Origin: Glycomyces sambucus
GTDB taxonomy: Bacteria > Actinomycetota > Actinomycetes > Mycobacteriales > Micromonosporaceae
Length of the DNA stretch: 64,000 nt
Direction: 5' to 3'
NCBI RefSeq assembly: GCF_900102815.1
Contig: NZ_FNGF01000002.1
Location: forward strand, 186,001 to 250,000
In this document: positions 24,428 through 43,816 of the stretch, piece by piece
How the letters are laid out: each line of letters opens with the position of its first letter
How positions within the stretch are numbered: the first letter of the stretch is position 1
The notes under the pieces: generated by a model
Database searches by the model: none
Seen by the model: the letters and a program-made list of their open reading frames with translations, nothing else
Told to the model about the DNA's origin: nothing
Position numbers and translations under genes: made by a program

Positions 24428-26671
24428 ATGGCATCGGCCCCCGCCGCCGCGAACCGCATCGAACTCGAGATCGGCGGCATGACCTGCGCCTCCTGCGCCA
24501 TGCGGATCGAGAAGAAGCTCAACAGGCTCGACGGCGTGACCGCCAGCGTCAACTACGCCACCGAGAAGGCCCGCATCGACGCCCCCGCCGGCATCGACCC
24601 CGCCGAGCTCATCGCCGTCGTCGAGAAGACCGGCTACACCGCCGCCCTCCCCGCGGCCCCCGAACCCGAGGCCGCCCCCGAGGACCGCCCCGACCACGAA
24701 CTCGACTCCCTGCGCGACCGCCTCATCGCCTCGATCGTCCTGTCGGTCCCGGTCATCGCCATGTCGATGGCCCCGGCCCTCCAGTTCGACTACTGGCAGT
24801 GGCTCTCGCTCGCGCTGGCCTGGCCGGTCATCGCGTGGGCGGCCTGGCCGTTCCACAAGGCCGCCTGGACCAACCTGCGCCACGGCGCGGCCACGATGGA
24901 CACGCTGGTGTCCGTCGGCACGCTCGCCGCGTTCGCCTGGTCGGTGTACGCCCTGTTCTGGGGGACGGCCGGCGAGATCGGCATGACCCACCCGTTCGAG
25001 TTCAAGGTCGAACCCAACGACGGCGCCGGGAACCTCTACTTCGAGGTCGCCGCGGGCGTCACGATGTTCCTGCTGGCCGGGCGCTACTTCGAGAAGCGCT
25101 CGAAGCGCCGGGCCGGCGCGGCCCTGCGGGCCCTGCTGGAGATGGGCGCCAAGGACGTCGCGGTCCTGCGCGGCGGCGCCGAGACCCGCGTCCCGATCGC
25201 GCAGCTCGCGGTCGGCGACGAGTTCGTGGTCCGCCCGGGGGAGAAGATCGCCGCCGACGGCGTGATCGTCTCGGGCACCTCCGCGATCGACGCCTCCATG
25301 CTCACCGGCGAGTCGGTGCCCGTGGAGGCCGGCGAGGGCGACGCGGTCACCGGCGCCACCGTCAACGCCGGCGGCCGCCTGGTCGTCCGCGCCACCCGCG
25401 TCGGCGCCGACACCCAGCTCGCCCAGATGGCCCGCCTCGTCGAGGAGGCCCAGTCCGGGAAGGCCGAGGTCCAGCGCCTCGCCGACCGCGTCTCGGGGTT
25501 CTTCGTGCCGGTGGTCATCGCGATCGCGGTCGGCACCCTCGGGTTCTGGCTCGGCGCCGGCTTCCCGGCCGCCGCGGCCTTCACCGCCGCCGTCGCGGTC
25601 CTCATCATCGCCTGCCCGTGCGCCCTCGGCCTCGCCACGCCGACCGCGCTGCTGGTCGGCACCGGCCGCGGCGCCCAGATGGGCGTCCTCATCAAGGGCC
25701 CGGAGGTCCTGGAGTCCACCCGCAAAGTGGACACGATCGTGCTCGACAAGACCGGCACCGTCACCACCGGGAAGATGACCCTCGTGGACGTCCTCCCCGC
25801 GGAGGGCGTCGACCGGGCCGAGCTGCTGCGGCTCGCCGGTGCGATCGAGCACGCCTCGGAGCACCCGGTGGCGCAGGCGATCGCGAAGGGCGCCGCCGCT
25901 GACGGGCCGCTGCCCGCGGTCGAGGACTTCCAGAACGTCGAGGGCAAGGGCGTCCAAGGCGTCGTCGACGGCCACTACGTGGTCGTGGGCCGCGAGTCCC
26001 TGCTCCGGGACTGGACCCTCGACCTCGACCCGGCGCTCGCCGAGGCCAAGGCCGAGGCCGAGCGCGGCGGCAAGACCGCGGTGGCCGTGGCCTGGGACGG
26101 TGAGGCCCGCGGGGTCCTGGTCGTCGCCGACACCGTCAAGCCGACCAGCCGCGAGGCGGTCGCCCAGTTCAAGGCCCTCGGGCTGACGCCGGTCCTGCTG
26201 ACCGGCGACAACCGGGCCGTCGCCGAGCGCATCGCGGCCGAGGTCGGGATCGACGAGGTGATCGCCGAAGTGCTCCCCGAGGACAAGGTCGCGGCCGTGA
26301 CCCGGCTCCAGGAGCAGGGCAAGACCGTCGCCATGGTCGGCGACGGCGTCAACGACGCCGCCGCGCTCGCCAAGGCCGACCTCGGCCTGGCGATGGGCAC
26401 CGGCACCGACGTCGCCATCGAGGCGGCCGACCTGACGCTCGTCCGCGGCGACCTGCGCGGTGCGGCGGACGCGATCCGGCTCGCGCGGCGCACCCTCGGC
26501 ACCATCAAGGGCAACCTGTTCTGGGCCTTCGCCTACAACGTCGCGGCGATCCCGCTCGCGGCCCTGGGCCTGCTCAACCCGATGCTCGCCGGGGCGGCCA
26601 TGGCCTTCTCGAGCGTGTTCGTGGTCGGCAACAGCCTGCGGCTGCGCTCGTTCAAGAGCCGCGCGCTGTAA
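24428..26671 (+). CDS. copA: Copper-translocating P-type ATPase
   Basis: A 747-residue P1B-1 ATPase. It has one N-terminal HMA domain with GMTCASC (about residues 17-23), a linker, membrane helices, the phosphatase motif TGES, the transport motif CPC ([12 protein letters not shown], near 395), phosphorylation motif DKTGT (near 438), the SEHP nucleotide-binding His-Pro (near 476), TGDN (near 590) and GDGVND (near 637). These mark export of Cu(I). It is the last gene of the copper operon and ends at a very strong terminator. The single HMA domain and length are normal for bacterial CopA. GAAAGG lies upstream of the ATG. Confidence 0.97.
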
Positions 26672-28552: not shown

Positions 28553-28580
28553 TTGGAAACGTTCTTAAGAACGTTCCCAA
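28553..28580. promoter_or_regulatory. LacI-family operator of the riboside operon
   Basis: A 28-bp inverted repeat with one mismatch, centred on AACGTTCTTAAGAACGTT (28558-28575) and flanked by TTGG/CCAA. Each half holds AACGTT, the typical LacI-family half-site core. It lies 26 bp before the regulator's start, implying autorepression of the whole operon. Confidence 0.85.
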
Positions 28581-28605
28581 ACCCCTCCTATCTGCAGGGA
28601 TGAGG

Positions 28606-29619
28606 ATGGCTGAGACACCGAAGTCCAACCTCCAGCTCGTGGCCGCCAAGGCCGGCGTGTCCGTGTCCTCCGTGTCGCGGGTCCTCAACGGCGGCTCCGC
28701 CAGCGAAGACCTCGCGCGCAAGGTCCGCGAGGCCGCCGCCGAGCTCGGATACGTCCCCCACGCCAGCGCCCGCACCATGCGCACCGGGCGCACCGACCAG
28801 ATCACCCTCGCCGTCGCCGACGTCGGCAACCCCGTCTACGTGCAGATGATGCGCACCGTGACCGGGATCGTCGCCAAGGCCGGGTACCGGCTCGTCGTCT
28901 CCTCCACCGGCAGCGACCCCGCCTCCCAGATCGACCTCGTCACCAGCCTCAACCGCGGCTACGCCGACGGGCTCCTCATGAGCCCGCTGCGCATCACCGA
29001 GGACCTCGTCGAGGCCATGAAGTCGAGCCGCCTCCCGATCGTCGTCATCGGCACCCTCCCCGCCGACGTCGAACTCGACAACGTGCGCGCCGACTCCGCC
29101 ACCGGCATCGGCCTCGCCGTCGAGCACCTGGTCGCCCAGGGCCGGCGCCGGATCGCGCTCGTCAACGGCCCGGTCGACACCGTCCCCGGCTCCGCCCGCC
29201 TCGCCGGCTACCTCGCGGCGATCGAGCGGTACGGGCTCCCCACCTCCTCCGAACTCCAGGTCACCGCGACCGCGTTCACCTACCGGGCCGGGCGCAAGGC
29301 CACCGCCGCACTCCTCGGCCAGGCCAGCCCCGACGCGATCATCGGCGCCAACGACCTCCTCGCCGTCGCCGCGCTCAAGGAGCTCGCCGCCGCCGGGGTC
29401 CGCGTCCCCCGGGACACGGCGGTCGTCGGCATGGACGACACCGACGCCGCCGAACTCGCCACGCCCTCGCTGACCTCGGTGGACCTCGGCTCGGCCAAGC
29501 GCGCCAAGGCCGCCGCGAAGCTCCTCATCCGCCGCATCCAGGAACCCGACGCCCCCGTCAGCCGCATCGTGATCCCCCCGGCGCTCTCGATCCGCGAATC
29601 CACCGGAGGCCCGGCATGA
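28606..29619 (+). CDS. LacI family transcriptional regulator
   Basis: A 337-residue LacI-family repressor. The N-terminal HTH and hinge are clear: LQLVAAKAGVSVSSVSRVLNGG (about residues 8-29). A periplasmic-binding-protein-like sensor follows (IGLAVEHLVAQGRRRIALVNGP, PDAIIGANDLLAVAALKEL, AVVGMDDTD) that would bind the inducing sugar. The ATG at 28606 is preferred over one 6 nt upstream because GCAGGG is then 6 nt away. It is the first gene of a ten-gene operon and overlaps the first permease by 4 bp. The 28-bp palindrome upstream is its likely operator. Unusually, the regulator is the promoter-proximal gene, so expression is self-limiting. Confidence 0.92.
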   Translation: MAETPKSNLQLVAAKAGVSVSSVSRVLNGGSASEDLARKVREAAAELGYVPHASARTMRTGRTDQITLAVADVGNPVYVQMMRTVTGIVAKAGYRLVVSSTGSDPASQIDLVTSLNRGYADGLLMSPLRITEDLVEAMKSSRLPIVVIGTLPADVELDNVRADSATGIGLAVEHLVAQGRRRIALVNGPVDTVPGSARLAGYLAAIERYGLPTSSELQVTATAFTYRAGRKATAALLGQASPDAIIGANDLLAVAALKELAAAGVRVPRDTAVVGMDDTDAAELATPSLTSVDLGSAKRAKAAAKLLIRRIQEPDAPVSRIVIPPALSIRESTGGPA

Positions 29620-30536
29620 CCGCGCTCGCCGCACCCGCATCACCCCGGGCGCCCAAGCGGCGCAAGAGCACCGAGGGCCGCGACGCGTGGCTCCTGGTCC
29701 TGCCCGCGCTCCTGCCGGTCATGCTCTTCAGCGTCTACCCGCTCGTGTACGGCGTCCTCCTCGGCTTCACCGACGCCGAGGCCGGGCTCAACGCGGAGAC
29801 GCACTTCAACGGGTTCGACAACTACACCGCGCTCGCCGGCAACGAGCTGTTCTGGAACTCGTTCAAGATCGGCCTCATCTGGGCCTTCGCGGTGACGATC
29901 CTCCAGTTCCTGGCCTCGCTCGGGCTCGCGCTGCTGCTCAACCTCGACCTGCGCCTGCGCTGGCTCGCCCGCACGCTCGCGCTCATCCCGTGGGCGATGC
30001 CGCCGGTCATCATCGCGATCATGTGGCAGCTCATGCTCAACCCGAACTACGGGCCCGTCAACCGCACGCTCGCCTCGCTGGGCCTGCCGTCCTCGATCAA
30101 CTGGCTCGGCGAGTCGGCGATCGCGCTCCCGGTGGTCATCGTGGTCGGCGTGTGGGCGGGGATGCCGCAGACCACGGTCACGCTCCTGGCCGGGCTCCAG
30201 TCGGTGCCCGCCGAGCTGAACGAGGCCGCCGCGATCGACGGCGCGAGCACCTGGCGCCGGTTCTGGCACGTGACGCTGCCGGCGCTGCGCCCGATCATCA
30301 CCGCGATCACCACGCTCGACCTGATCTGGAACTTCAACTCGTTCGCGCTCGTGTTCGTCCTGACCGCGGGCGGCCCGGGCGGGACCACGATGCTGCCGAG
30401 CCTGTTCGCCTACAACGAGGCGTTCCGGTACGGCAACTTCGGCTACGCCGCCGCGATGGGCAACGTCATGGTCGTCCTCATCGGCGCCTTCCTGATCCTG
30501 TACCTGCGCGCTCAGATGCGGAGCCGGAACTCATGA
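29616..30536 (+). CDS. Carbohydrate ABC transporter permease, MalF-like
   Basis: A 306-residue CUT1-type permease with six membrane helices. The EAA loop that contacts the ATPase reads LNEAAAIDGASTWRRFWHVTLPALRP (about residue 205). An N-terminal basic cytoplasmic tail (PKRRKSTEGR) precedes helix 1. It pairs with the next permease and the lipoprotein binding protein. No ATPase gene is in the operon, so a shared MsiK-type ATPase encoded elsewhere is expected, as is usual for actinobacterial CUT1 systems. It overlaps lacI and the next permease by 4 bp each. Confidence 0.93.
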   Translation: MTALAAPASPRAPKRRKSTEGRDAWLLVLPALLPVMLFSVYPLVYGVLLGFTDAEAGLNAETHFNGFDNYTALAGNELFWNSFKIGLIWAFAVTILQFLASLGLALLLNLDLRLRWLARTLALIPWAMPPVIIAIMWQLMLNPNYGPVNRTLASLGLPSSINWLGESAIALPVVIVVGVWAGMPQTTVTLLAGLQSVPAELNEAAAIDGASTWRRFWHVTLPALRPIITAITTLDLIWNFNSFALVFVLTAGGPGGTTMLPSLFAYNEAFRYGNFGYAAAMGNVMVVLIGAFLILYLRAQMRSRNS

Positions 30537-31375
30537 CCCGATCCATGCGCAACCCCGTCGCCCGCCCGCTCCAGTACCTGGCGCTCCTGGCGTACATGTG
30601 CTTCCTGGCGTTCCCGCTGGTCTTCCTGCTCACGACCGCGTTCAAGACCGACCGCGAGATCCGCTCGCCCGACCCGTCGTTCCTGCCGCGGTCGCTCAAC
30701 TTCGACAACTTCACCGCCGCGATCGAGCGCGCCGACCTGTTCCAGGCCGCCGCCAACAGCCTGCTCACGGCGGTCACCACCACGGTGATCGTCACGGCCG
30801 TCTCGCTCCCGGCGGCCTACGCCCTGGTCCGGTTCCGCACCAGGCTGCGGGCCGTCGCCACCGGGTGGATCCTGCTCTCGCAGGTCTTCCCGTTCATCCT
30901 CATCATCATCCCGCTGTTCCTGCTGCTCAAGGACATCGGCCTGGTGAACACGCTGCTGGGCCTGGTCCTGGTGTACGCCGTCTGGGCGCTCCCCTTCGCG
31001 CTGTGGATGCTCCAGGGCTACGTCTCGGCGATCCCGGTCGAACTCGAAGAGGCCAGCGCCGTCGACGGCGCCGGCCGGTTCAAGACCCTCGTGAAGATCG
31101 TCCTGCCGCTCCTCGCGCCCGGCCTGGTCGCGACCAGCCTGTTCACCTTCATCAACTCCTGGAACGAGTTCTTCTTCGCGCTCGTGCTCATCCAGGACCC
31201 GGACATGCAGACCCTGCCGCTCGCCCTCGCCCGCTTCGTGGGCGCCGAGGGGCAGGTCCAACTCGGGCCGCTGGCCGCCGCCGCGCTCATCGCGTGCGTC
31301 CCCAGCCTCGTGTTCTTCATGCTCATCCAGAAACGGCTCACCGCCGGACTCCTCAGCGGCGCGGTCAAAGGCTGA
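30533..31375 (+). CDS. Carbohydrate ABC transporter permease, MalG-like
   Basis: A 280-residue CUT1 permease with six helices and the EAA loop PVELEEASAVDGAGRFKTLVKIVLPLLAPG (about residue 175). The C-terminus ends KRLTAGLLSGAVKG, the usual MalG-type tail. It is translationally coupled to the MalF-like gene by ATGA. Together they form the membrane channel for uptake of the operon's unknown substrate. Confidence 0.93.
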   Translation: MTRSMRNPVARPLQYLALLAYMCFLAFPLVFLLTTAFKTDREIRSPDPSFLPRSLNFDNFTAAIERADLFQAAANSLLTAVTTTVIVTAVSLPAAYALVRFRTRLRAVATGWILLSQVFPFILIIIPLFLLLKDIGLVNTLLGLVLVYAVWALPFALWMLQGYVSAIPVELEEASAVDGAGRFKTLVKIVLPLLAPGLVATSLFTFINSWNEFFFALVLIQDPDMQTLPLALARFVGAEGQVQLGPLAAAALIACVPSLVFFMLIQKRLTAGLLSGAVKG

Positions 31376-31407
31376 CCGGGCCGACCACTATGGAAAGAGA
31401 GAACGAA

Positions 31408-32691
31408 ATGCGCACTCGCACCAGCGCCAGCGTCGCCGCGGTAGCAGGGCTCATATCCCTGCCCCTCGCGCTCACCGGCTGCTCCGCCTTCGGGGTCGGC
31501 GACGACTCGGACGAGGGCGGGAAGGTCACCCTGACCTTCCAGTCGCTGGCCTACCAGGACACCACGATCGCCGCCACGCAGGAGATCGTCGACGCCTGGA
31601 ACGCCGACAACCCCGACGTCCAGGTCGAACTCGTGCAGGGCTCCTGGGACAACGTGCACGACCAGCTCGTGACCCAGTTCCAGGGCGGCACCGCGCCCGA
31701 CGTCATCCACGACGAGTCCGCCGACATCATGGGCTTCGCCGAGCAGGGCTACCTCGCCGACCTGACCGACCTGCTCAGCGACGACACCAAGTCCGCGGTC
31801 TCGGACGACATCTGGGGCACCGTCACCTCCTCGGACGGCGCGATCGTCGCCGCCCCGACGCTGCTCCAGTCCTACGTGGTCTTCGCCAACACCGACGCGT
31901 TCGCCGACGCCGGCGTCGAGGTCCCCGCGGGCGAGAGCCTGTCGTGGGACGACTTCCAGGCCCTCGCCGGCCAGCTCGGCGGCGACGGCGGCTTCGGCCT
32001 CGGGTGGGGCCTCCAGCAGCCCACCGCCGCGGTCATGAACCTCTCGCTCGGCTTCGACGGCACCTACTTCGAGGGCGACGCGATCAACGTGGCCGAGAAC
32101 GAGCTGGCCGTGCCCGAGCGCATCCACGCCATGGCCTACGAGGACGGATCGCTCGACCCGGTCTCGCTGACCCAGTCCGGCTCCGACGTCCTGCCCGGCT
32201 TCTTCGACGGCCGGTACCCGATGTACGTGGCGGGCAACTACATCGCCCAGCAGATCACCGAGTCCGCTCCCGAGGGCTTCAACTGGGCCGTCCTGCCCCC
32301 GCTCGCGGGCACCGCCGGCGCGGTCCAGGCCGCCAACCCGCAGACCATGTCGGTGGCCGCCGAGTCCGAGCACGTCGAGGAGTCGGCCGCGTTCATCGAC
32401 TTCTTCATGCAGGCCGAGCACCAGGCCGCCCTCGCGCAGGGCGACTGGCTCATCCCGTCCTCGGACACCGCGCGCGAGCTCGTCGCCGAGCAGACCGCGG
32501 GCGAGAACGGCTGGGACGCGATCCTCGCCTCCGGCGAGGGCCTGTCGGCCGCGCCGTTCCAGTCGGCCGTGAACTACCCGCAGTGGAAGGACCAGTACGC
32601 GACCCCCGCCCTCCAGCAGTACCTGGCGGACGAGATCACCGTCGAGCAGCTGCAGACGCAGCTCACCGACGGCTGGAACGACCTGGGCTAG
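31408..32691 (+). CDS. Extracellular solute-binding lipoprotein (CUT1 family)
   Basis: A 427-residue binding protein. The signal peptide ends with lipobox ALTGC (Cys at residue 25), so the mature protein is anchored to the membrane exterior. It has the family-1 extracellular solute-binding fold: VTLTFQSLAYQDTTIAATQEIVDAWNADNPDVQVELVQGSW, QFQGGTAPDVIHDESADIMGFAEQGYLADLTDLL, FFDGRYPMYVAGNY. It captures the substrate for the two permeases. The ATG at 31408 is preferred over one at 31390 because it leaves a standard short n-region and an AGAGAG site upstream. A hairpin just after the gene may enrich its mRNA relative to the enzymes. Confidence 0.92.
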   Translation: MRTRTSASVAAVAGLISLPLALTGCSAFGVGDDSDEGGKVTLTFQSLAYQDTTIAATQEIVDAWNADNPDVQVELVQGSWDNVHDQLVTQFQGGTAPDVIHDESADIMGFAEQGYLADLTDLLSDDTKSAVSDDIWGTVTSSDGAIVAAPTLLQSYVVFANTDAFADAGVEVPAGESLSWDDFQALAGQLGGDGGFGLGWGLQQPTAAVMNLSLGFDGTYFEGDAINVAENELAVPERIHAMAYEDGSLDPVSLTQSGSDVLPGFFDGRYPMYVAGNYIAQQITESAPEGFNWAVLPPLAGTAGAVQAANPQTMSVAAESEHVEESAAFIDFFMQAEHQAALAQGDWLIPSSDTARELVAEQTAGENGWDAILASGEGLSAAPFQSAVNYPQWKDQYATPALQQYLADEITVEQLQTQLTDGWNDLG

Positions 32692-32710
32692 CGCCGCACG
32701 AACACCCTCC

Positions 32711-32738
32711 GCCCGCCGGGGCCGCGGCCCCGGCGGGC
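32711..32738 (+). terminator. Intercistronic hairpin after the binding-protein gene
   Basis: Perfect palindrome with 14-bp arms GCCCGCCGGGGCCG and complement, between the transport and enzyme genes. Such hairpins often reduce downstream expression and stabilise upstream mRNA. Confidence 0.75.
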
Positions 32739-32764
32739 ACCGAACCAGAACCTGAGGAGACACG

Positions 32765-33940
32765 ATGACCCTGCCGCCGAACGCTGAACCGTCGAGCGAC
32801 ATCCTGGTGGACAAGGCGACGGGCGCGCTCGCTGGCGCGGCGGTGGGCGACGCGCTCGGCGGCGCCGCCGAAGGGAACACGCCCGCGGCCATCCAGGCCC
32901 GCTACGGCGGCTTCATCGAGGGGATCGTGCCGCCGTTCAACACGGACTGGCGCAACGCCCGCCCCATCGCCCCGTACCACAAGGGCGACGGGCACATCAC
33001 CGACGACACCCTCATGACCTGCGCACTCGTCGACGTCTACGCGGACGTGCGTGGCCACCTCGACGCCCACGCGATCGCCTCGCACCTGGTGCCGCTCCTC
33101 ATCGGCGAGAAGCGCTGGATCCCCGAGTTCGAGGCCGAGGGGCTGCTGCTCCACCGGATCTTCCTCGCCGAGAAGTGGCTCGTCGCGCGCCTCCACTACG
33201 GCCACATCGACCCCCGCGAGGCCGGGGTCGGCAACATCGTCAACTGCGGCGCCACCATGTACGCCGCCCCGATCGGCATCGTCAACGCAGGCAGCCCCGA
33301 GGCCGCCTACGCCGAGGCCGTCGACGTCGCCGGCGCCCACCAGTCCTCCTACGGCCGCGAGGCCGCCGGGGTCTACGCCGCCGCCGTCGCCGAGGCCATG
33401 CGCCCCGGCGCCGACGTCGAGTCCGTGGTCGCCACCGCGCTGCGCCTCGCCAAGGACGGCACGAAGCACGCGATCGCCGCCGTCGTCGAGGCCGCCCGCG
33501 GCGTCGCCGACTGGCGCACCGGCCTCGCCGACCTGCGCCGCGCCGTCGAGCCGTACGACACCGTCGGCCCCGACTACCGCGCCCCCGCCATGGACGCGCG
33601 GATCCCGAGCCGCACCAAGGCCATCGAAGAGCTCCCGATCGCGCTCGGGATGCTCGTCGCCGCCCGCGGCGACTACCGCGACGCCGTCCTCGGCGCCGTC
33701 AACTACGGCCGCGACTCCGACTCCATCGCCGTCATGGCCGGTTCGATCGCGGGCGCCCTCGGCGGCCTCGGCGCCGTGCCCGCCGCATGGGTCGAGGACG
33801 TCAGCGGCAACTCCCGCATCGACGTCACCGCCACCGGCCCCGTCATCGCCGCCGTCGCCCGCGACATCTGGGCCGCCGACGCGCGCCGCGCCGCCGAGGT
33901 CGACGCCGCCCGCACCGCCTACGCCGGAGCGGCCGCATGA
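32765..33940 (+). CDS. ADP-ribosylglycohydrolase family protein (first of two)
   Basis: A 391-residue member of the ADP-ribosylglycohydrolase (ARH/DraG) superfamily, which cleaves N- or O-ribosidic bonds using two Mg ions. Metal motifs are visible: GDALGG (about residue 29), ITDDTLM (about 79) and GRDSDSIAVMAG (about 318). The enzyme is larger than typical ARH (about 300-360 residues). With a sugar transporter and ribokinase in the same operon, the likely role is hydrolysis of an imported riboside rather than reversal of protein ADP-ribosylation. It is the first enzyme after an intercistronic hairpin and overlaps the second ARH by 4 bp. GAGGAG lies upstream of the ATG. Confidence 0.88.
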   Translation: MTLPPNAEPSSDILVDKATGALAGAAVGDALGGAAEGNTPAAIQARYGGFIEGIVPPFNTDWRNARPIAPYHKGDGHITDDTLMTCALVDVYADVRGHLDAHAIASHLVPLLIGEKRWIPEFEAEGLLLHRIFLAEKWLVARLHYGHIDPREAGVGNIVNCGATMYAAPIGIVNAGSPEAAYAEAVDVAGAHQSSYGREAAGVYAAAVAEAMRPGADVESVVATALRLAKDGTKHAIAAVVEAARGVADWRTGLADLRRAVEPYDTVGPDYRAPAMDARIPSRTKAIEELPIALGMLVAARGDYRDAVLGAVNYGRDSDSIAVMAGSIAGALGGLGAVPAAWVEDVSGNSRIDVTATGPVIAAVARDIWAADARRAAEVDAARTAYAGAAA

Positions 33941-35283
33941 TCCGACTCTCCTGGACCCAGCCCGAGGACCTCGTCCCGCACGCCCTCGAAGCCGCCCGCC
34001 TCGACGGCCGCGACGCCGCCGCGATCCGCGACCGCTGGACCACCGCGGGCGGCTCCACCCAGGCGCCGGTCTCCGGCGCGACCCCCCGGCCCGCCCCCGC
34101 GGCGCTCCGGGCGCTCGCCCGCGACCTCCTCGCCGAACTCGACACGCTGCCCGACCCCGAAGCGCTGCGAGCGAGCGAACCCGACGAGCCCGGCGCGATC
34201 CTCGCGTTCGCCGCACCCCCCGAGCTCCCCGCGCCCGGCGACGTCGAGGACCGCGTCCTCGGCGCCTGGCTCGGCCGCGCCGCCGGCTGCCTCCTCGGCA
34301 AACCCGTCGAGAAGATCTCGCTCGGCGGCATCCGCGCCATCGCGAAGTCCACCGGCAACTGGCCGCTGCACGGCTACTTCACCGAGCGGGGCCTCGACCC
34401 CGCCGTCGCCGCCGCCCACCCGTGGAACCGCCGGTCGCGGCCCACCAGCCTCGCCGAGAACATCGACGGCATGCCCGAGGACGACGACCTCAACTTCCCG
34501 CTCGTCGCCCTCACCCTCCTCGAACGCCACGGCGACGCCTTCACCACCGACCACGTCGCCCAGGCGTGGCTCGACCTCCTCCCCGGCGGCCGGGTCTTCA
34601 CCGCCGAGCGCATCGCCTACCGCAACCTCCTCGACGGCATCGAACCCGAGCGGGCCCGGGCCGTGCGCAACCCCTTCCGCGACTGGATCGGCGCCCAGAT
34701 CCGCACCGACCTCTACGGCTGGACCCGCCCCGGACTCCCCGTCGAGGCCGCGGTGCTCGCCTGGACCGACGCGCGCCTCTCCCACGGCCGCAACGGCGTC
34801 TACGGCGCCATGTTCGCCGCGGCCGCCTCCGCCGCCGCCGTCACCGGCGCCCCGGTCGCCGCCGTCATCGAGGCCGGCCTGTCGGTGGTCCCGCCGAACT
34901 CCCGCTACGCCACCGCGATCCGCTTCGGCACCGACCTCGCCGCGGGCGCGCTCGGCGACGAGGCCGCCGTCGACGCCCTCCACGCCCAGTACGGGCACCT
35001 CCACTGGGTCCACGTCCTCAACAACGCCGCGCTCCTGGCGTTCGCGCTGGCGCGCGGCGACGGCGACCTGCACCGCACCATCACGCTCGCGGTCTCCGGC
35101 GGCTGGGACACCGACTCCGTCGGCGCCACCGCCGGTGCGGTCGCGGGCGCGCTCACCGGCGCGAAGGCCCTGCCGCGCAAGTGGACCGACCCGATCGACG
35201 ACCGGTACGCGACCTCGGTGCCCGGCTTCGCCGGCGTCCGCTTCACCGACCTGGCCGCCCGCACCCTGGAGGTATCCCGATGA
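33937..35283 (+). CDS. ADP-ribosylglycohydrolase family protein (second of two)
   Basis: A 448-residue ARH-fold protein, only distantly similar to its neighbour. The N-terminal approximately 95 residues (starting MIRLSWTQPEDLVPHALEAARLDG) are extra. The ARH core follows with GAWLGRAAGCLLGKPVEK, the metal motif PEDDDLNFP (about residue 180) and SGGWDTDSVGATAGA (about 389). Both metal-binding acidic clusters are present, so it should be active. Two non-identical hydrolases in tandem suggest two linkages or anomers, or a heteromer. It overlaps both neighbours by 4 bp. Confidence 0.88.
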   Translation: MIRLSWTQPEDLVPHALEAARLDGRDAAAIRDRWTTAGGSTQAPVSGATPRPAPAALRALARDLLAELDTLPDPEALRASEPDEPGAILAFAAPPELPAPGDVEDRVLGAWLGRAAGCLLGKPVEKISLGGIRAIAKSTGNWPLHGYFTERGLDPAVAAAHPWNRRSRPTSLAENIDGMPEDDDLNFPLVALTLLERHGDAFTTDHVAQAWLDLLPGGRVFTAERIAYRNLLDGIEPERARAVRNPFRDWIGAQIRTDLYGWTRPGLPVEAAVLAWTDARLSHGRNGVYGAMFAAAASAAAVTGAPVAAVIEAGLSVVPPNSRYATAIRFGTDLAAGALGDEAAVDALHAQYGHLHWVHVLNNAALLAFALARGDGDLHRTITLAVSGGWDTDSVGATAGAVAGALTGAKALPRKWTDPIDDRYATSVPGFAGVRFTDLAARTLEVSR

Positions 35284-36173
35284 CCGCCGTCGTCGTGCTC
35301 GGCTCCGCGAACCTCGACCTCGTCTACGACGTCGAGCGCATCCCCGCCCCCGGCGAGACCGTCCTGTCGCTCGGCTTCGGCGCCTTCCCCGGCGGCAAGG
35401 GCAACAACCAGGCCGTGGCCGCCGCCCGCGCGGGCGCCGACACCCGGTTCATCACCGCGCTCGGCCGCGACGGCTCCGGCGACCGCCTCGCCCGGGAAGC
35501 CCGCGACGCCGGGATCACCCTCCTGGACCGGCGCGTGGACGCCCCCACCGGGACGGCCGCGATCTTCGTGGACCGCCGCGGCGAGAACTCCATCGTCGTC
35601 GACTCCGGCGCCAACGCCGCCCTCACCGACCTCACCGGACCCGAACGCGAGGCGATCGGCGCCGCCGACGTGCTCGTCCTCCAACTCGAGACCCCGATCG
35701 GCACCGTCGCCGAGGCGGTCGCGGTCGCGAAGGCCGCCGGGACCCGCGTGGTCCTCAACGCCGCCCCCAGCGGCGAGGTCCCGCACCACGTCCTCGACGG
35801 CGTCGACGTGCTCGTGGTCAACGAGCACGAGGCCGCCGACCTCGCCGGCCCCGGCGCCGACCCGATGGCGGCCCTGACCGGCCGCGGGTGCGCCGTCATC
35901 ATCACGCTCGGCGCCGAAGGCGCCCTCGTGGGCCTGCCCGGCGAGACCCCGGTGTCCGTGCCCAGCCACAAGGTCGACGCCGTCGACACCACCGGCGCCG
36001 GCGACACGTTCGTGGGCGCGCTCGCCGCCGCCCTCGACGGCACCGGCCTGGAGGCGCTCGTCGCCGCCACCGGCTTCGCCACCGCCGCCGCGGCCATCGC
36101 CGTGCAGCGCAAGGGCGCCGTCCCGTCCATTCCGACCCTGGAGGAGGTGCGGGCGTTCCGTGACGCACGCTGA
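35280..36173 (+). CDS. rbsK: Ribokinase (PfkB family)
   Basis: A 297-residue PfkB-family sugar kinase of the ribokinase type: VLGSANLDLVYDVERIPAPGET at the start, the substrate-binding GGKGNNQAVAAARAG (about residues 40-54) and the catalytic DTTGAGDTFVGAL with its anion hole and general base Asp (about residue 243). It would phosphorylate ribose freed by the two upstream glycohydrolases to ribose 5-phosphate for the pentose-phosphate pathway. It overlaps the preceding gene by 4 bp and the next by 14 bp. Specificity for ribose over other pentoses is inferred from family pattern and context. Confidence 0.9.
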   Translation: MTAVVVLGSANLDLVYDVERIPAPGETVLSLGFGAFPGGKGNNQAVAAARAGADTRFITALGRDGSGDRLAREARDAGITLLDRRVDAPTGTAAIFVDRRGENSIVVDSGANAALTDLTGPEREAIGAADVLVLQLETPIGTVAEAVAVAKAAGTRVVLNAAPSGEVPHHVLDGVDVLVVNEHEAADLAGPGADPMAALTGRGCAVIITLGAEGALVGLPGETPVSVPSHKVDAVDTTGAGDTFVGALAAALDGTGLEALVAATGFATAAAAIAVQRKGAVPSIPTLEEVRAFRDAR

Positions 36174-38193
36174 TCCCGACGAGGCCGCCACCAACACCAT
36201 TGATCCGCTGGTGCCCCGGCCCATCGACCGCCCGACGACCCTGCCGCCCGGCGGCCGGATCGACCCGGCGGCCGGCGACATCGCCAAGATCTTCGCCGCC
36301 CCCGACGACCCCGCCGACTGGCCCGCCTGGCGCGCCGACCTCGCCGCCTGGCGCGACGAGGCCCGCGCCCGCCTCGCCTACAGCGGCGAGGCGTACGACG
36401 ACCCCGCCGTCCGGTGGGCCGCGCGCGCCCACGCCGTCGCCCAGGTCTGGCTGTGGGACGAGCGCCTGTTCGACCACGCCGAGCAGCGGTTCACCCCCGA
36501 GCGGTTCCTGGAGTCCGTCGCCGCGCAGGGCGGCCTCGACGGGCTCGTCCTCTGGCACGCCTACCCCGTCATCGGCATCGACGACCGCAACCAGTTCGAC
36601 TTCTACCGGGACGTGCCCGGCCTCGCCGACCTGGTGCGCCGCTTCCACGACCTCGGCCTGCGCGTCTTCGTCGACTACAACCCGTGGGACACCGGGACCC
36701 GGCGCACCGGCCGCGGCGACGCCGACGAGCTCGCCGACCTCATGCGCGACCTCGACGCCGACGGCGTCTTCCTCGACACCCTCAAGGAAGGCGACGCCGC
36801 GCTCACCCGCGCCCTCGCCGGATGGGTCCTGGAAGGCGAGTCCCGCGTCGCCAACCCGCGCATCGAGGACCACCTCCTGTCGTGGGCCCAGTGGTTCGCC
36901 GACTCCGAGGCCCCCGGCGTGCAGCGCGCCCACTGGTACGAGCGCCGCCACATGATGCACTCGGTCCGCCGCTGGAACCGCGACCACTCCGGGGAGCTCC
37001 AGTCCGCGTGGATGAACGGCACCGGCGTCCTGGTGTGGGACGCCGTGTTCGGCGTCTGGGTCGGCTGGAACCGCCGCGACGAGGCCACGCTGCGCCGGAT
37101 GCTCCGCGTCCAGCGCGCCGCCACCGACGTCCTGGTGGAGGGCGAGTGGGCGCCGCTCGACGGCGCCACCCCCGAGGCGGTCGCCGCCGGGGTCTACGCC
37201 TCCCGCTGGACCCGCGGCGACGTGACACTGTGGACGATCGTGAACCGGCGCGACCTCGACTGGGTCGGCGACCCGCTCGCCGCGCCCGCGACCGGCCCCC
37301 GCTACGACGTCACCGCCGGCACCGAGGTCGCCGGCGCCGTCAAGGTCCCCGCCCGCGGCGTCACCGGCGTCCTCGACCTCGCCCCCGGCGCCGAGCGCCC
37401 GGCCTGGCTCGACGCGCTCCTCGCCGAGGCCGCCGCCGACCCCGGCGCGACCGACGCGACCTTCCCGGCCCGCGAGGCGGTCCGCTTGCGGCCCAAGCCC
37501 TCCGCACTGCAGATCCCGCCCAACACCGCGATCCGCGTCCCGGCCGGGCGCCGGGACCTCACCGTCGCCTTCCGCCGCCGCGAGACCGGCTTCTACCAGG
37601 GCGCCCCCTACGTCGAGGAGTGGAAGCCGCTCCCGCCGCGCCTCCACGACGACCGCGAAGCGGTCCTCACCGCCGAGACCGGCCCGGTCGCCGTGGCCGC
37701 CAACGAGGTCTCGCTCCTGCAGTACCGGCTGTTCCTCGACCGCAGCGGCTACGAACCGCAGGTCCCGCACCGGTTCCTCACCGGCACCGAGGACGCCGAC
37801 CCGGCCGCGCCCGTCACCGGCGTGTCCATCGAGGACGCCCGCGCGTACGCCGCGTGGGCCGGCGCCCGCCTGCCCGACGAGTTCGAATGGCAGCTCGCCG
37901 CCGCCGCGCCCGGCTTCACCCGCCGCCGCCCGGCCGTGTGGAACTGGACCGAGAGCGAGCACTCCGACGGCGTCACCCGCTTCGCGATGCTCAAGGGCGG
38001 CAGCGACCACCGCTCCGAAGGCTCCGACTGGTACACCGACGGCGGCCTCAAGGACCCCGGGTTCAGCCTCAAGTTCCTGCTGCCGGGCCTCGGACTCGAA
38101 CGCTCCGCCAGCATCGGCTTCCGCATCGCCTGGGACCTGCCCGGCGACGGCCTTCCCAGTGACGATCCATCCAGGAGCGAGGAGACCGCATGA
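36160..38193 (+). CDS. TIM-barrel glycosidase-like protein fused to a SUMF1/FGE-type domain
   Basis: A 677-residue fusion. Residues about 85-340 look like a glycoside-hydrolase-type TIM barrel: LDGLVLWHAYPVIGID, VFVDYNPWDTG and LDADGVFLDTLKEGD are beta-strand ends with acidic residues. Residues about 480-670 match the SUMF1 (formylglycine-generating enzyme-like) fold: VAVAANEVSLLQYRLFLDRSGY, VSIEDARAYAAWAGARLPDEFEWQLAA, WNWTES and FRIAW. Most SUMF1-fold proteins are binding or oxidoreductase modules; here the Cys pair needed for sulfatase maturation is not seen, so an FGE role is unlikely. No signal peptide: it acts in the cytoplasm on the imported compound. The GTG start overlaps rbsK by 14 bp. 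Function is unknown. Confidence 0.7.
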   Translation: MTHADPDEAATNTIDPLVPRPIDRPTTLPPGGRIDPAAGDIAKIFAAPDDPADWPAWRADLAAWRDEARARLAYSGEAYDDPAVRWAARAHAVAQVWLWDERLFDHAEQRFTPERFLESVAAQGGLDGLVLWHAYPVIGIDDRNQFDFYRDVPGLADLVRRFHDLGLRVFVDYNPWDTGTRRTGRGDADELADLMRDLDADGVFLDTLKEGDAALTRALAGWVLEGESRVANPRIEDHLLSWAQWFADSEAPGVQRAHWYERRHMMHSVRRWNRDHSGELQSAWMNGTGVLVWDAVFGVWVGWNRRDEATLRRMLRVQRAATDVLVEGEWAPLDGATPEAVAAGVYASRWTRGDVTLWTIVNRRDLDWVGDPLAAPATGPRYDVTAGTEVAGAVKVPARGVTGVLDLAPGAERPAWLDALLAEAAADPGATDATFPAREAVRLRPKPSALQIPPNTAIRVPAGRRDLTVAFRRRETGFYQGAPYVEEWKPLPPRLHDDREAVLTAETGPVAVAANEVSLLQYRLFLDRSGYEPQVPHRFLTGTEDADPAAPVTGVSIEDARAYAAWAGARLPDEFEWQLAAAAPGFTRRRPAVWNWTESEHSDGVTRFAMLKGGSDHRSEGSDWYTDGGLKDPGFSLKFLLPGLGLERSASIGFRIAWDLPGDGLPSDDPSRSEETA

Positions 38194-39377
38194 CCGCGCC
38201 GCTGGAGGGCCTGCGGGTCCTCGACGTCTCGACCCTGTTCGCCGGGCCCATCGCCGCGACCTTCCTCGGCGACTTCGGCGCCGACGTGATCAAAGTGGAG
38301 CACCCGACGAAGCCCGACGCCGCGCGCGGCCACGGGCCCTCCAAGGACGGCGTCAACCTGTGGTGGAAGACGCTGGGCCGCAACAAGCGCACCGTCACCG
38401 TCAACCTCGGCACCCCCGAGGGCGCCGAACTGCTGCTGCGCCTGGCCGCCGACGCCGACGTGCTCATCGAGAACTTCCGGCCCGGCACCCTCGAACGCTG
38501 GGGCCTGGGCCCCGACCGGCTCCACGAGGCCAACCCGCGCCTCGTCGTCGCCCGCGTCACCGCGTTCGGCCAGACCGGCCCCTACTCGGGCCGCCCCGGC
38601 TTCGGCAGCCTCGCCGAGGCCATGAGCGGCTTCGCGGCCCTCACCGGCCAGCCCGACGGGCCGCCCACCCTGCCGCCCTTCGGCCTCGCCGACGGCATCG
38701 CCGCGCTCGCCACCGCGTACGCCGTCATGGTCGCGCTCCGCTCCGCCGACCGCGACGGCGCCGGCCAGGTCATCGACCTCGCCATCATCGAGCCGATCCT
38801 CATGCTCCTGGGCGGCCAGATCACCGCCTACGACCAGCTCGGGGTCCTCCAGCCGCGCAGCGGGAACCGCTCGGTCAACAACGCGCCCCGCAACGTCTAC
38901 AAGACCGGCGACGGCGAATGGGTCGCCGTCTCCACCAGCTCCCAGTCCATCGCCGAACGGGTCGTGCGCCTGGTCGGGCGCGCCGACCTCGTCGCCGAGC
39001 CCTGGTTCGCCTCCGGGCACACCCGCGCCGAGCACGCCGACGAACTCGACGAGGCCGTGGCCGCCTGGATCGGCGCCCGCCCCACCGCCGAGGTCGTCGC
39101 CGCGTTCGAGGACGCCCAGGCCGCCGTCGCCCCCGTCTACGACGTGCGCGGCGTCCTCGCCGACCCGCAGTACCAGGCGATCGGCACGGTCCAGACCGTC
39201 CAGGACGACGAGCTCGGGCCCGTCAGAATGCAGAACGTCCTGTTCAGGCTCTCGGGGACCCCCGGCGCGATCCGCTGGCCCGGGCGCCGCCACGGCCAGG
39301 ACACCGACGAGGTGCTCGCCGAGGTCGGCGTCACCCGCGAGCAGCTGGAACGACTGCGGGAGAAGGGGATCGTATGA
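38190..39377 (+). CDS. CaiB/BaiF (class III) CoA-transferase
   Basis: A 395-residue family III CoA-transferase: LRVLDVSTLFAGPIAATFLGDFGADVIKVEHP at the start, NKRTVTVNLGTPEGAELLLRL and the catalytic Asp in GQVIDLAIIEP (about residue 190). These enzymes transfer CoA from succinyl- or acetyl-CoA to an organic acid through an aspartyl-CoA thioester. It is coupled by 4-bp overlaps to the fusion gene before it and the CitE-like gene after it. The CaiB plus CitE pairing is known from pathways that activate a hydroxydicarboxylic acid and cleave it to smaller acyl-CoA units, so an acidic aglycone from the imported compound is the probable substrate. Confidence 0.9.
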   Translation: MTAPLEGLRVLDVSTLFAGPIAATFLGDFGADVIKVEHPTKPDAARGHGPSKDGVNLWWKTLGRNKRTVTVNLGTPEGAELLLRLAADADVLIENFRPGTLERWGLGPDRLHEANPRLVVARVTAFGQTGPYSGRPGFGSLAEAMSGFAALTGQPDGPPTLPPFGLADGIAALATAYAVMVALRSADRDGAGQVIDLAIIEPILMLLGGQITAYDQLGVLQPRSGNRSVNNAPRNVYKTGDGEWVAVSTSSQSIAERVVRLVGRADLVAEPWFASGHTRAEHADELDEAVAAWIGARPTAEVVAAFEDAQAAVAPVYDVRGVLADPQYQAIGTVQTVQDDELGPVRMQNVLFRLSGTPGAIRWPGRRHGQDTDEVLAEVGVTREQLERLREKGIV

Positions 39378-40180
39378 ACCCGGTCAGCGCCCTCTACGTG
39401 CCGGGCGACCGCCCGGACCGCTTCGACAAGGCCGCCGCCTCCGGCGCCGACGTCGTCATCCTCGACCTGGAGGACGCCGTCGCCGACGCCGCCAAGGCCG
39501 CCGCGCTCGACCACGTCACCGCCTGGCTCGCCGCCCGCACCGGCGGCCCCGAGGTCCAGGTCCGCGTCAACGTGGGCGCCGACCACGAGATCCGGGCCGT
39601 CCGCGCCACCGGCGCGCACGTGGGCCTGCGCATCCCCAAGGTCGAGGCGCCCGAGGACCTCGGCGTCATCGCCTCCCTCGCGCAGGGCCTGCCGCTGACC
39701 GCGCTCGTCGAGTCGGCGCGCGGCCTCCAGAACGCCGGACCCATCGCCGCCCACCCGGCCGTGGCCGCGCTGGCGCTCGGCGAGGCCGACCTCGCCTCCG
39801 ACCTCGGCTCGACCGCCGAGGCCGTCCTCGACCACGCCCGCATCCGCCTCCTCGTGGCCGCCCGCGCCGCGGGCCTGCCCGCCCCGATGCTCTCGGTCTA
39901 CCCGCGGATCCAGGACCTCGACGGCCTGCGCGCCGACACCGAGCGCGGCCGGGCCCTGGGCCTGCGCGGGCGCACCGCCGTGCACCCCAAGCAGCTCCCG
40001 GTCATCCGCGAGGTCTTCGCGCCCGACCCCGAGGAGACCGCGTGGGCCGAGGCCGTCGTCGCGGCCCTCGGCGGCGCCGCGGACGGCGGCGGGGGAGTGG
40101 CGACCCTGCCCAGCGGTGAGATGGTCGACCCCGCGATGCTCGGCCGCGCCCGCGCCATCCTCGCCGCCGGGCGGCCCTGA
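39374..40180 (+). CDS. HpcH/HpaI aldolase / CitE-type acyl-CoA lyase
   Basis: A 268-residue CitE-like lyase with all family blocks: LYVPGDRPDRFDKAAASGAD, VVILDLEDAVAD, VQVRVN, ALVESARGLQNA, LGEADLASDLG (Mg ligands) and RTAVHPKQLPVI. Relatives cleave citryl-, malyl- or citramalyl-CoA to acetyl-CoA plus a keto acid. Coupled to the CoA-transferase by ATGA, it is the last enzyme of the operon and likely splits the CoA-activated acid. Exact substrate unknown. The next gene starts 18 bp later with its own leaderless promoter. Confidence 0.9.
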   Translation: MNPVSALYVPGDRPDRFDKAAASGADVVILDLEDAVADAAKAAALDHVTAWLAARTGGPEVQVRVNVGADHEIRAVRATGAHVGLRIPKVEAPEDLGVIASLAQGLPLTALVESARGLQNAGPIAAHPAVAALALGEADLASDLGSTAEAVLDHARIRLLVAARAAGLPAPMLSVYPRIQDLDGLRADTERGRALGLRGRTAVHPKQLPVIREVFAPDPEETAWAEAVVAALGGAADGGGGVATLPSGEMVDPAMLGRARAILAAGRP

Positions 40181-40197: not shown

Positions 40198-40716
40198 GTG
40201 ACACTCATCCGACGCGAGAGGGACGGCGACCGCGACGCCGTCCACGCCCTCCACACCGCCGCCTTCGCCGGACTCCCGCACGCCTCCGGCGGGGAGGCCG
40301 ACCTCGTGGACGCCCTGCGCGGCACCGCCGCCTGGGACCCGCGGCACTCTCTCGTGGCCGAAGTGGACGGCGAGGCCGCCGGCCACGTCCTCTCCACCTA
40401 CGGCACCGTCGGCGAGGCCCGTGTCCTCGGCCTCGGCCCCATCGGCGTCGACCCCGCCCTCCACCGCCGCGGCATCGGTTCCGCCCTCATGCACGCGGCC
40501 CTCGCGGCCGCCGACGCCTGCGGCGAGCCCGCGGTGATCCTCCTGGGCGACCCGGCCTTCTACGGCCGCTTCGGATTCGTGCCCGCCGCCGACCACGGGG
40601 TCGTCCCCGAGCACCCCGAATGGGGCCCCTACTTCCAGATCCGCACCCTCAGCGCCTGGGACGAGGGGCTGCGCGGCACGTTCGCGTACGCGCCCCCGTT
40701 CAGCGAGTTCGGCTGA
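40198..40716 (+). CDS. GNAT family N-acetyltransferase
   Basis: A 172-residue GNAT acetyltransferase. It starts MTLIRRERDGDRDAVHALHTAAF. The acetyl-CoA site is LGPIGVDPALHRRGIGSALMHAAL (motif A, R-R-G-I-G), and PAVILLGDPAFYGRFGFVPAADHGV identifies the YhbS-like subgroup. The acceptor is not predictable. The GTG start with an adjacent CATACT box suggests independent leaderless expression even though it follows the riboside operon by 18 bp, so it may or may not be part of that system. Confidence 0.9.
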   Translation: MTLIRRERDGDRDAVHALHTAAFAGLPHASGGEADLVDALRGTAAWDPRHSLVAEVDGEAAGHVLSTYGTVGEARVLGLGPIGVDPALHRRGIGSALMHAALAAADACGEPAVILLGDPAFYGRFGFVPAADHGVVPEHPEWGPYFQIRTLSAWDEGLRGTFAYAPPFSEFG

Positions 40717-40777
40717 GGCGCGCGGCGATGAATCGCGCCCGGCCGCGTCGTCTGCACCGCGAGAGAACGGAGACCAG

Positions 40778-41425
40778 GTGACCCACGCCGACCTGTCGCG
40801 CAAGCAGCTCTGGAGCGCGATCTTCACCGAACGCCAGGCCCTCGCCGACGACCTCGACGGCCTCGACCCCGCGGCGTGGACCACGCCCTCGCTGTGCGCG
40901 GGCCTGTCGGTCCGCGAAGTCCTCGCCCACCTCACCGCCGGGGCCAGCCTCGACTGGGGCCACTGGATGGCAGGGGTGATCAAGCACCGCTTCGACTTCG
41001 ACGCGCAGTCCGACATGCAGCTGCGCCGCCGGCTCGGCGACTCCGCCGCCGACACCCTGGCGCAGTTCAAGGCCGCGGTCGCCAGCACCACCCGGCCGCT
41101 GCCGCTCAAGGCCGTGCTCGGCGAGATCGTCGTCCACGGCGAGGACGTGCGCCGGCCGCTCGGCATCCGCCGCGACCACCCGACCGCCACCGTGACCGCG
41201 GTGGCCGACTACTTCCAGCGCACCAACATGACCGTCCCCTCCGGCAAGCGCGCCGCGGGCCTGCGGCTGGAGGCCGCGGACGGGCCCTTCACGGCCGGTG
41301 ACGGCCCGCTGGTCTCCGGCCGCACCATCGCCCTCGTCATGGCGATGACCGGCCGCGCCGCCTACGGCGACGAACTCGACGGCCCCGGTGCCCCGGTGCT
41401 TTTGGAGCGCTGCGCGTCCATGTGA
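40778..41425 (+). CDS. TIGR03083 / DinB-like maleylpyruvate isomerase family protein
   Basis: A 215-residue protein of the TIGR03083 (mycothiol-dependent maleylpyruvate isomerase N-terminal, DinB-fold) family: LDGLDPAAWTTPSLCAGLSVREVLAHLTAGASLD (residues about 25-60) and IVVHGEDVRRPLGI. The conserved His residues in AHLTAG and VHGED are the usual metal ligands of this fold. Most members act with mycothiol in thiol transfer or detoxification. The GTG start has CGGAG 8 nt upstream. It ends at a strong terminator shared with katG. Confidence 0.82.
   Translation: MTHADLSRKQLWSAIFTERQALADDLDGLDPAAWTTPSLCAGLSVREVLAHLTAGASLDWGHWMAGVIKHRFDFDAQSDMQLRRRLGDSAADTLAQFKAAVASTTRPLPLKAVLGEIVVHGEDVRRPLGIRRDHPTATVTAVADYFQRTNMTVPSGKRAAGLRLEAADGPFTAGDGPLVSGRTIALVMAMTGRAAYGDELDGPGAPVLLERCASM

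Positions 41426-41527: not shown

Positions 41528-43816
<2,289 letters not shown>

Follow-up and report, generated by a model that had tools for sequence, protein, structure and literature searches.

The window analysed here, a stretch of 64,000 nucleotides of the Glycomyces sambucus genome (contig NZ_FNGF01000002.1, positions 186,001 to 250,000), contains ten + strand open reading frames (28606-40180) located behind a 28-bp palindrome. We propose that they form a LacI-repressed operon for the catabolism of a furanoside carrying a beta-hydroxy acid, which would yield pentose phosphate and acyl-coenzyme A (acyl-CoA) fragments, and we put the probability of this reading at roughly 0.5. What we observed is a conserved gene content, intact motifs, a predicted barrel fold, and the alternation of a TIM-barrel/SUMF1 fusion with two extra ADP-ribosylglycohydrolase-fold (ARH) genes, for which we coin the names ARH3 and ARH4. 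Apart from the barrel, all parts belong to known families.

All ten genes of the original prediction, which had been made from the sequence alone, were confirmed as + strand open reading frames. Their family names are supported by Pfam matches over the cut-off, with the exception of the TIM part of the fusion, for which there is no clear match. The features are as follows.

28553..28580, unstranded: LacI-type operator, a 28-bp near-perfect palindrome with two AACGTT boxes 12 bp apart
28606..29619, +: LacI-family regulator (alternative start 28600)
29616..30536, +: CUT1 ATP-binding cassette (ABC) permease A
30533..31375, +: CUT1 ABC permease B
31408..32691, +: sugar-type solute-binding lipoprotein (SBP_bac_1; alternative start 31390)
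32692..32764, +: 73-nt gap with a strong hairpin, from binding protein to ARH1
32765..33940, +: ARH1, an ARH-fold enzyme
33937..35283, +: ARH2, a second ARH-fold enzyme with an N-terminal extension of ~100 residues
35280..36173, +: PfkB kinase, ribokinase-like; the least constant of the ten genes
36160..38193, +: TIM/SUMF1 fusion, with a predicted alpha-glycosidase-type barrel and beta domain (residues ~39-414) and a cysteine-free domain of the SUMF1/formylglycine-generating enzyme (FGE) fold (~450-660)
38190..39377, +: CaiB-type (class III) CoA-transferase
39374..40180, +: CitE-type acyl-CoA lyase

In the proposed scheme, every substrate and every reaction of which we infer, the CUT1 importer with an ATPase acting in trans would take up a small furanoside that also bears a beta-hydroxy (di)carboxylic acid; an oligosaccharide-like alpha-riboside is its most likely form. 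ARH1, ARH2 and TIM/SUMF1 (or, in other lineages, ARH3 and ARH4) would cleave glycosidic bonds in the cytosol. The freed pentose, most likely ribose, would be phosphorylated by the PfkB kinase; the acid would be loaded with CoA by CaiB and then split by CitE, giving an oxo compound and a short acyl-CoA that is probably acetyl-CoA. Uptake and breakdown of a riboside with an acid aglycone had already been predicted, and the conserved unit, the kinase residues and the likeness of CaiB and CitE to solved enzymes agree with it. Two parts are revised: the TIM/SUMF1 fusion is reread as a glycosidase, and an ester-bound acid is suggested. Ribose is the likely sugar, and among the readings weighed here a riboside fits best.

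A conserved ten-gene unit

Two sets of relatives were compared, with gene counts resting on tblastn with the window proteins. The first was obtained by scanning named genomes with an alignment of TIM/SUMF1 and takes the best 80 of 235 relatives, 65 of which have at least 9.9 kb on both sides (full loci); this set is biased towards TIM/SUMF1. The second was picked by ARH1, which matches 61 of 394 genomes of the class at E <= 1e-60 (host included); 20 of the other 60 were fetched, one of them (L130) from the same contig as a TIM-picked locus (L090). A family search that matched 125 of 200 genomes, many over the SUMF1 domain only, was used solely for loci. Alignment A1 found the host only among 396 genomes of the phylum, with 3 candidates scored per genome, which is no evidence of absence.

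All ten genes are present in 57 of the 65 full loci, CaiB and CitE in 64, the kinase in 58 and the other seven genes in every one. These loci span 23 genera, from Glycomyces, Leifsonia and Herbiconiux to Kribbella, Cellulomonas, Micromonospora and Desertimonas. The ARH1-picked loci have CaiB and CitE in the cluster in 18/20 cases (with the CoA pair upstream of lacI in L135), the kinase in 14/20 and TIM/SUMF1 in 5/20. As a small control, 18-kb stretches round the host's two other ARH genes gave no CaiB or CitE match and one PfkB-like match. Gene order is thus not lost in relatives, as it would be had the genes been wrongly predicted to form a unit, and a chance neighbourhood is rejected by the 57 complete loci.

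The operator lives up to its prediction as near-perfect, its arms being complementary at 13/14 positions. A 31-mer spanning it has a single site in the window at up to 3 mismatches (0/100 shuffles). Its 20-bp core, again at up to 3 mismatches, has a single site in the 5.6-Mb genome, so the regulator may have one target. At least one AACGTT lies upstream of lacI in 52 of the 63 loci examined; none was found there in the other 11 (7 Kribbella loci, L047, L049, L081 and L090).

Both Pfam and NCBIfam recognise CUT1 importer parts in the two permeases and the binding protein. The ten operon genes include no ATPase gene; its separation from the importer operon is common in Actinobacteria, and a UgpC/MsiK-like ATPase, 57% identical to rhizobial UgpC, is encoded elsewhere in the genome (contig C7).

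Translational overlap is less regular than predicted: 4-bp ATGA overlaps, expected at nearly every junction, exist at only 6 of 9. Permease B and the binding protein are separated by 14 or 32 nt, and the kinase and TIM/SUMF1 genes share a 14-nt overlap with a GTG start. The hairpin in the 73-nt gap before ARH1 (-37.1 kcal/mol, z -3.8) probably sets relative expression, perhaps keeping the binding protein above the enzymes. A similar gap with a stable fold occurs in many relatives; the loci of Kribbella and Micromonospora, and a small number besides, have a short gap or none at all.

Several individual loci depart from the common layout. L060, from Arthrobacter sp. M4, looks mosaic, with arh2 and TIM products 70-71% identical to those of the window and importer and regulator at 43-56%. 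L047, from Candidatus Lumbricidophila, retains the operon; here lacI follows arh2 and precedes the TIM gene, and the kinase is absent. In L082 (5349-7796) and nine other Kribbella loci, reversed genes of PhoD-like phosphatase type and discoidin-like type, so named from their translations, stand between arh1 and arh2. Diverged versions that include CaiB and CitE occur at L132 and L133, AT-rich loci in genomes of 1.8 and 1.3 Mb; the pathway has thus been retained in spite of small genome size.

The sugar and the acid

The kinase residues N11, D13, K40, N43, E137 and D242 are each conserved in 82/82 sequences, aligned to solved ribokinases; the N, D, GGKGxNQ, E and GxGD elements are the sugar-contact and catalytic residues of ribokinase. 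On the acid side, the CaiB Asp168 is invariant (96/96). The closest solved structure to CaiB is succinate--hydroxymethylglutarate CoA-transferase (SUGCT), for whose equivalog model it scores 239.5 of the 750 bits needed. CitE is closest to a solved acyl-CoA lyase and keeps E113 and D139 in 94/94; its best NCBIfam model, RipC, gives 139.3 of 375 bits, under the cut-off. These nearest structures fit the predicted role, in which CaiB and CitE would activate and split a hydroxy acid.

In itaconate degradation a CoA-transferase, a hydratase and the citramalyl-CoA lyase RipC/Ccl act together. The window operon resembles it in pairing a CoA-transferase with a CitE-type lyase and differs in having no hydratase among its ten genes, a low RipC score and coupled glycosidases. 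Malate, citramalate, hydroxymethylglutarate and another 2-alkylmalate are all candidates for the acid. Plasmid-borne CaiB relatives adjoin varied lyases, hydratases and amidohydrolases, so their context does not name it.

A PF00756-type esterase is linked to 25 of 100 loci: 21 have it 0-1,464 bp after CitE, 3 Micromonospora loci between TIM and CaiB, and L052, in which no CaiB or CitE was seen, after TIM. This hints that the natural substrate has an ester bond in the esterase-linked species, so the acid may be ester-bound there and not a glycosidic aglycone. No esterase match was found in the other 75 loci, including all ten from Glycomyces. In many Micrococcales the esterase shortly after citE looks secreted and has propeller-like repeats (L053 14138-16504, with SBBP below cut-off; also L055, L068, L071, L081 and others); Leifsonia L046 (14082-14864) has a short, cytosolic-looking one.

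We consider it unlikely, though worth weighing seriously, that the furanose is other than ribose, for example a unit like apiose, arabinofuranose or galactofuranose from the glycans of plants or microbes, and that it carries an ester-bound acid, such as one of the malate, citramalate or hydroxymethylglutarate type. An acyl sugar would then be dismantled by the esterase, the glycosidases, the kinase and CaiB/CitE. The kinase is indeed under the ribokinase cut-off, but its ribokinase-type sugar-site residues are invariant, and ribokinase and RbsR are the best models for kinase and regulator. The nearness of SUGCT to CaiB and the linked esterase suit an acyl sugar, but three loci in four lack an esterase match. 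A Sphingopyxis plasmid also points this way: next to a TonB receptor, a ribokinase, TIM/SUMF1 and a CoA transferase (CaiB), it carries a GH127-domain protein, of beta-L-arabinofuranosidase type, at the place of the ARHs.

The ARH enzymes and the barrel fusion

Both ARH proteins match PF03747 over the whole domain (172.2 bits for ARH1, 160.0 for ARH2; cut-off 26.2), and their metal motifs, predicted to be intact, are so throughout the relatives. ARH1 has TDDT and D317/D319 in 97/97; ARH2 has EDDD in 96/98 and D391/D393 in 97/98, the shortfall consisting of gaps (two and one, respectively). These correspond to the acidic dimetal motifs of ARH enzymes.

It is improbable, in our judgement, that the ARHs are true ADP-ribosyl hydrolases and that the operon salvages ADP-ribose, fragments of nicotinamide adenine dinucleotide or ADP-ribosylated small molecules. 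Family membership and intact dimetal motifs would suit such a role, but the genes alongside encode a sugar importer, a sugar kinase, a glycosidase-fold protein, a CoA-transferase and a lyase. Scores for the characterised ADP-ribosyl hydrolase equivalogs are also far under their cut-offs, with ARH1 at 44.1 of 337.05 bits for DraG and 58.6 of 490 for Tri1, and ARH2 at 29.9 and 28.1 bits.

Published evidence on this alternative comes from Streptomyces coelicolor. There SCO2028-SCO2031 appear among eight uncharacterised DraG/ARH homologues (PMC9411070), and SCO2028-SCO2030 are listed in a paper that takes the number of hydrolases as a sign of lively ADP-ribosylation metabolism (PMC5087735). Against salvage, activity of SCO2028 and SCO2030 on U-alpha-ADPr, a single substrate, was undetectable (PMC13036486). 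In two of our loci from genus g50 (L126 and L129), an ARH3-ARH4-ARH1-ARH2 cluster adjoins lgt, a DsbA-like gene, trpA and trpB, as named from their translations, and SCO2038 is part of the trp locus (PMC5036795). Because of this shared neighbourhood, g50 is probably Streptomyces and SCO2028-SCO2031 are probably ARH3, ARH4, ARH1 and ARH2 of this cluster, judged from gene order and not from alignment. The likeness is that four ARH genes with consecutive numbers stand close to the trp locus; the difference is that publications treat them as ADP-ribosyl hydrolases, and that TIM/SUMF1 is absent from L126 and L129. ARH1 was found in 88 of 121 g50 genomes.

No Pfam family covers the barrel part of the fusion: across 55 barrel-fusion members the only matches were to FGE and to ten weak families, which reached E 0.044 at best and turned up in 1 or 2 members apiece. 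The predicted structure of residues ~39-414 is an alpha-glycosidase-type barrel, in which two residues are invariant, Asp206 directly following strand 4 and Glu227 directly following strand 5. Its modelled fold fits glycoside hydrolase (GH) family 13, where an Arg stands two residues before the strand-4 nucleophile; this Arg is absent here (F204-L205-D206) if D206 is the nucleophile. From alpha-glycosidases of the GH13, GH27, GH36 and GH129 type the window barrel thus differs in having no Pfam family, a non-GH13 pattern before Asp206 and a fused SUMF1 domain.

That domain was recognised in a fold search with a first model (16 sequences, predicted local distance difference test score 57.9), used for SUMF1 only. 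FGE depends on a catalytic cysteine pair. The window protein has zero cysteines, and 14 of 58 homologues have none in the C-terminal part. An active formylglycine enzyme is therefore rejected: the domain shares the SUMF1 fold of FGE, EgtB and SenA and differs in lacking cysteine and with it any FGE-type copper-cysteine chemistry. On the predicted structure, the fusion is better interpreted as a glycosidase outside the ARH family, the third in the operon, that bears a lectin-like SUMF1 domain.

How the fusion is distributed bears on its job. Among the 20 ARH1-picked loci, 15 have ARH3 and ARH4 only, 3 have TIM/SUMF1 only, 2 have both and 0 have neither; the ARH3+ARH4 pair occurs in 0 of the 80 TIM-picked loci, 15 of which have short flanks. 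The sample is phylogenetically clumped, so we attach no probability to these counts. The alternation suggests that TIM/SUMF1 and the ARH3+ARH4 pair have similar roles, which would be the hydrolysis of bonds; since two loci have both, the exchange is not a strict one.

Several of our results weigh against the proposed furanoside pathway. The ribokinase call stands for the sugar-site residues but not for the model score (270.2 of 299.65 bits for TIGR02152) or for constancy, the kinase being absent from 7 of the 65 full loci. The regulator likewise stays below the cut-off of its best NCBIfam model, RbsR (188.6 of 382 bits). CaiB and CitE are missing from one of the 65 full loci (L060) and from two of the 20 ARH1-picked loci (L122 and L125), and TIM/SUMF1 stands together with the ARH3+ARH4 pair in 2/20. 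Fold matches of the barrel include the heavy chain of CD98, a non-enzyme, so the fold alone is no proof of hydrolysis. ARH-fold enzymes are mainly known as ADP-ribosyl hydrolases. Lastly, none of the 7 fetched g50 clusters has a relative of the window regulator or importer in its stretch, which would be surprising in a pathway devoted to uptake, unless its transporter is encoded elsewhere.

Variant loci and wider meaning

Plasmids of Ensifer sp. PDNC004 and Sinorhizobium sp. B11 carry LacI, two permeases, a binding protein, ARH1-like and ARH2-like proteins, UgpC, a CoA transferase and a CoA ester lyase. Identity to the window is 43 and 41% for ARH1, 45 and 44% for CaiB and 37 and 35% for CitE, and the ARH2-like proteins have a weak LamG match, below cut-off, in the C-terminal part. 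An Agrobacterium plasmid (L144 5504-18307) has a ribokinase in place of the CoA pair and lies near genes for an acyl-homoserine lactone synthase and LuxR-family proteins; it prompted us to consider an opine-like substrate, for which nothing else spoke. In the Nitratireductor stretch the CoA pair was neither annotated nor found by tblastn, and the Phyllobacterium and Pseudochrobactrum stretches have none. A Mycolicibacterium plasmid carries LacI, an ARH2-like protein, the importer and a ribokinase. The 25-kb Nonomuraea stretch holds an importer, four ARH genes and a kinase, with no TIM, CaiB or CitE match; the same replicon does have a CaiB relative (63.5%), at a great distance. In most variants, importer and ARH form a constant front end, with kinase and CoA pair as optional branches, the pattern that would be expected of a front end liberating both a pentose and an acid.

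That two independent operons, a riboside one (importer, ARH, kinase) and an unrelated acid-degradation pair CaiB/CitE, are kept together is very improbable: riboside-only versions do exist in Mycolicibacterium, Nonomuraea and Agrobacterium, and L122 and L125 are without the pair and with no replacement acid genes recognised in their translations, but CaiB and CitE are in the cluster in 18/20 ARH1-picked and 64/65 TIM-picked loci, overlap translationally in the window, and recur in Ensifer and Sinorhizobium beside a CUT1 transporter just 24-28% identical to that of the window.

As predicted, no described pathway with this gene set was found in the open-licence literature searched. A Bacteroides ribose-utilisation system is said to contain an ARH gene, which our literature search could not confirm. 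E. coli yegTUV encodes a transporter, the predicted ADP-ribosylglycohydrolase YegU and the putative sugar kinase YegV, under the regulator GgaR/YegW (PMC10819704). It thus resembles the window in placing transporter, ARH and PfkB-type kinase in one operon, and differs in its nucleoside:H+ symporter-type transporter and in having no second ARH, glycosidase fusion, CoA-transferase or lyase; its genes likewise have no clear function.

A GNAT acetyltransferase gene starts 17 nt after CitE, followed by one for a mycothiol maleylpyruvate isomerase-domain protein (40198-41425); both are probably outside the operon. The region is flanked by a catalase-peroxidase-type peroxidase (41528-43768, -) and a heavy-metal P-type ATPase (24428-26671, +).

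We think it possible, at somewhat less than even odds, that these loci represent a widespread and undescribed pathway, in which ARH-fold proteins serve as ordinary catabolic furanosidases rather than in ADP-ribosyl repair, together with a CoA-transferase and a lyase, and in which TIM/SUMF1 is a new glycoside hydrolase family replacing two ARHs. The ARH fold has served to infer ADP-ribosyl signalling in Streptomyces. If the reading is true, many streptomycete 'ADP-ribosyl hydrolases' of the SCO2028-SCO2031 type would be enzymes of sugar catabolism, and a supposed ADP-ribosylation fold would be a catabolic glycosidase fold across many Actinobacteria and in some rhizobia. Because TIM/SUMF1 alternates with ARH3 and ARH4, a few purified proteins would be enough to test the glycosidase question. 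If true, the pathway would also point to a common, so far unrecognised natural substrate and to a new family of glycosidases.

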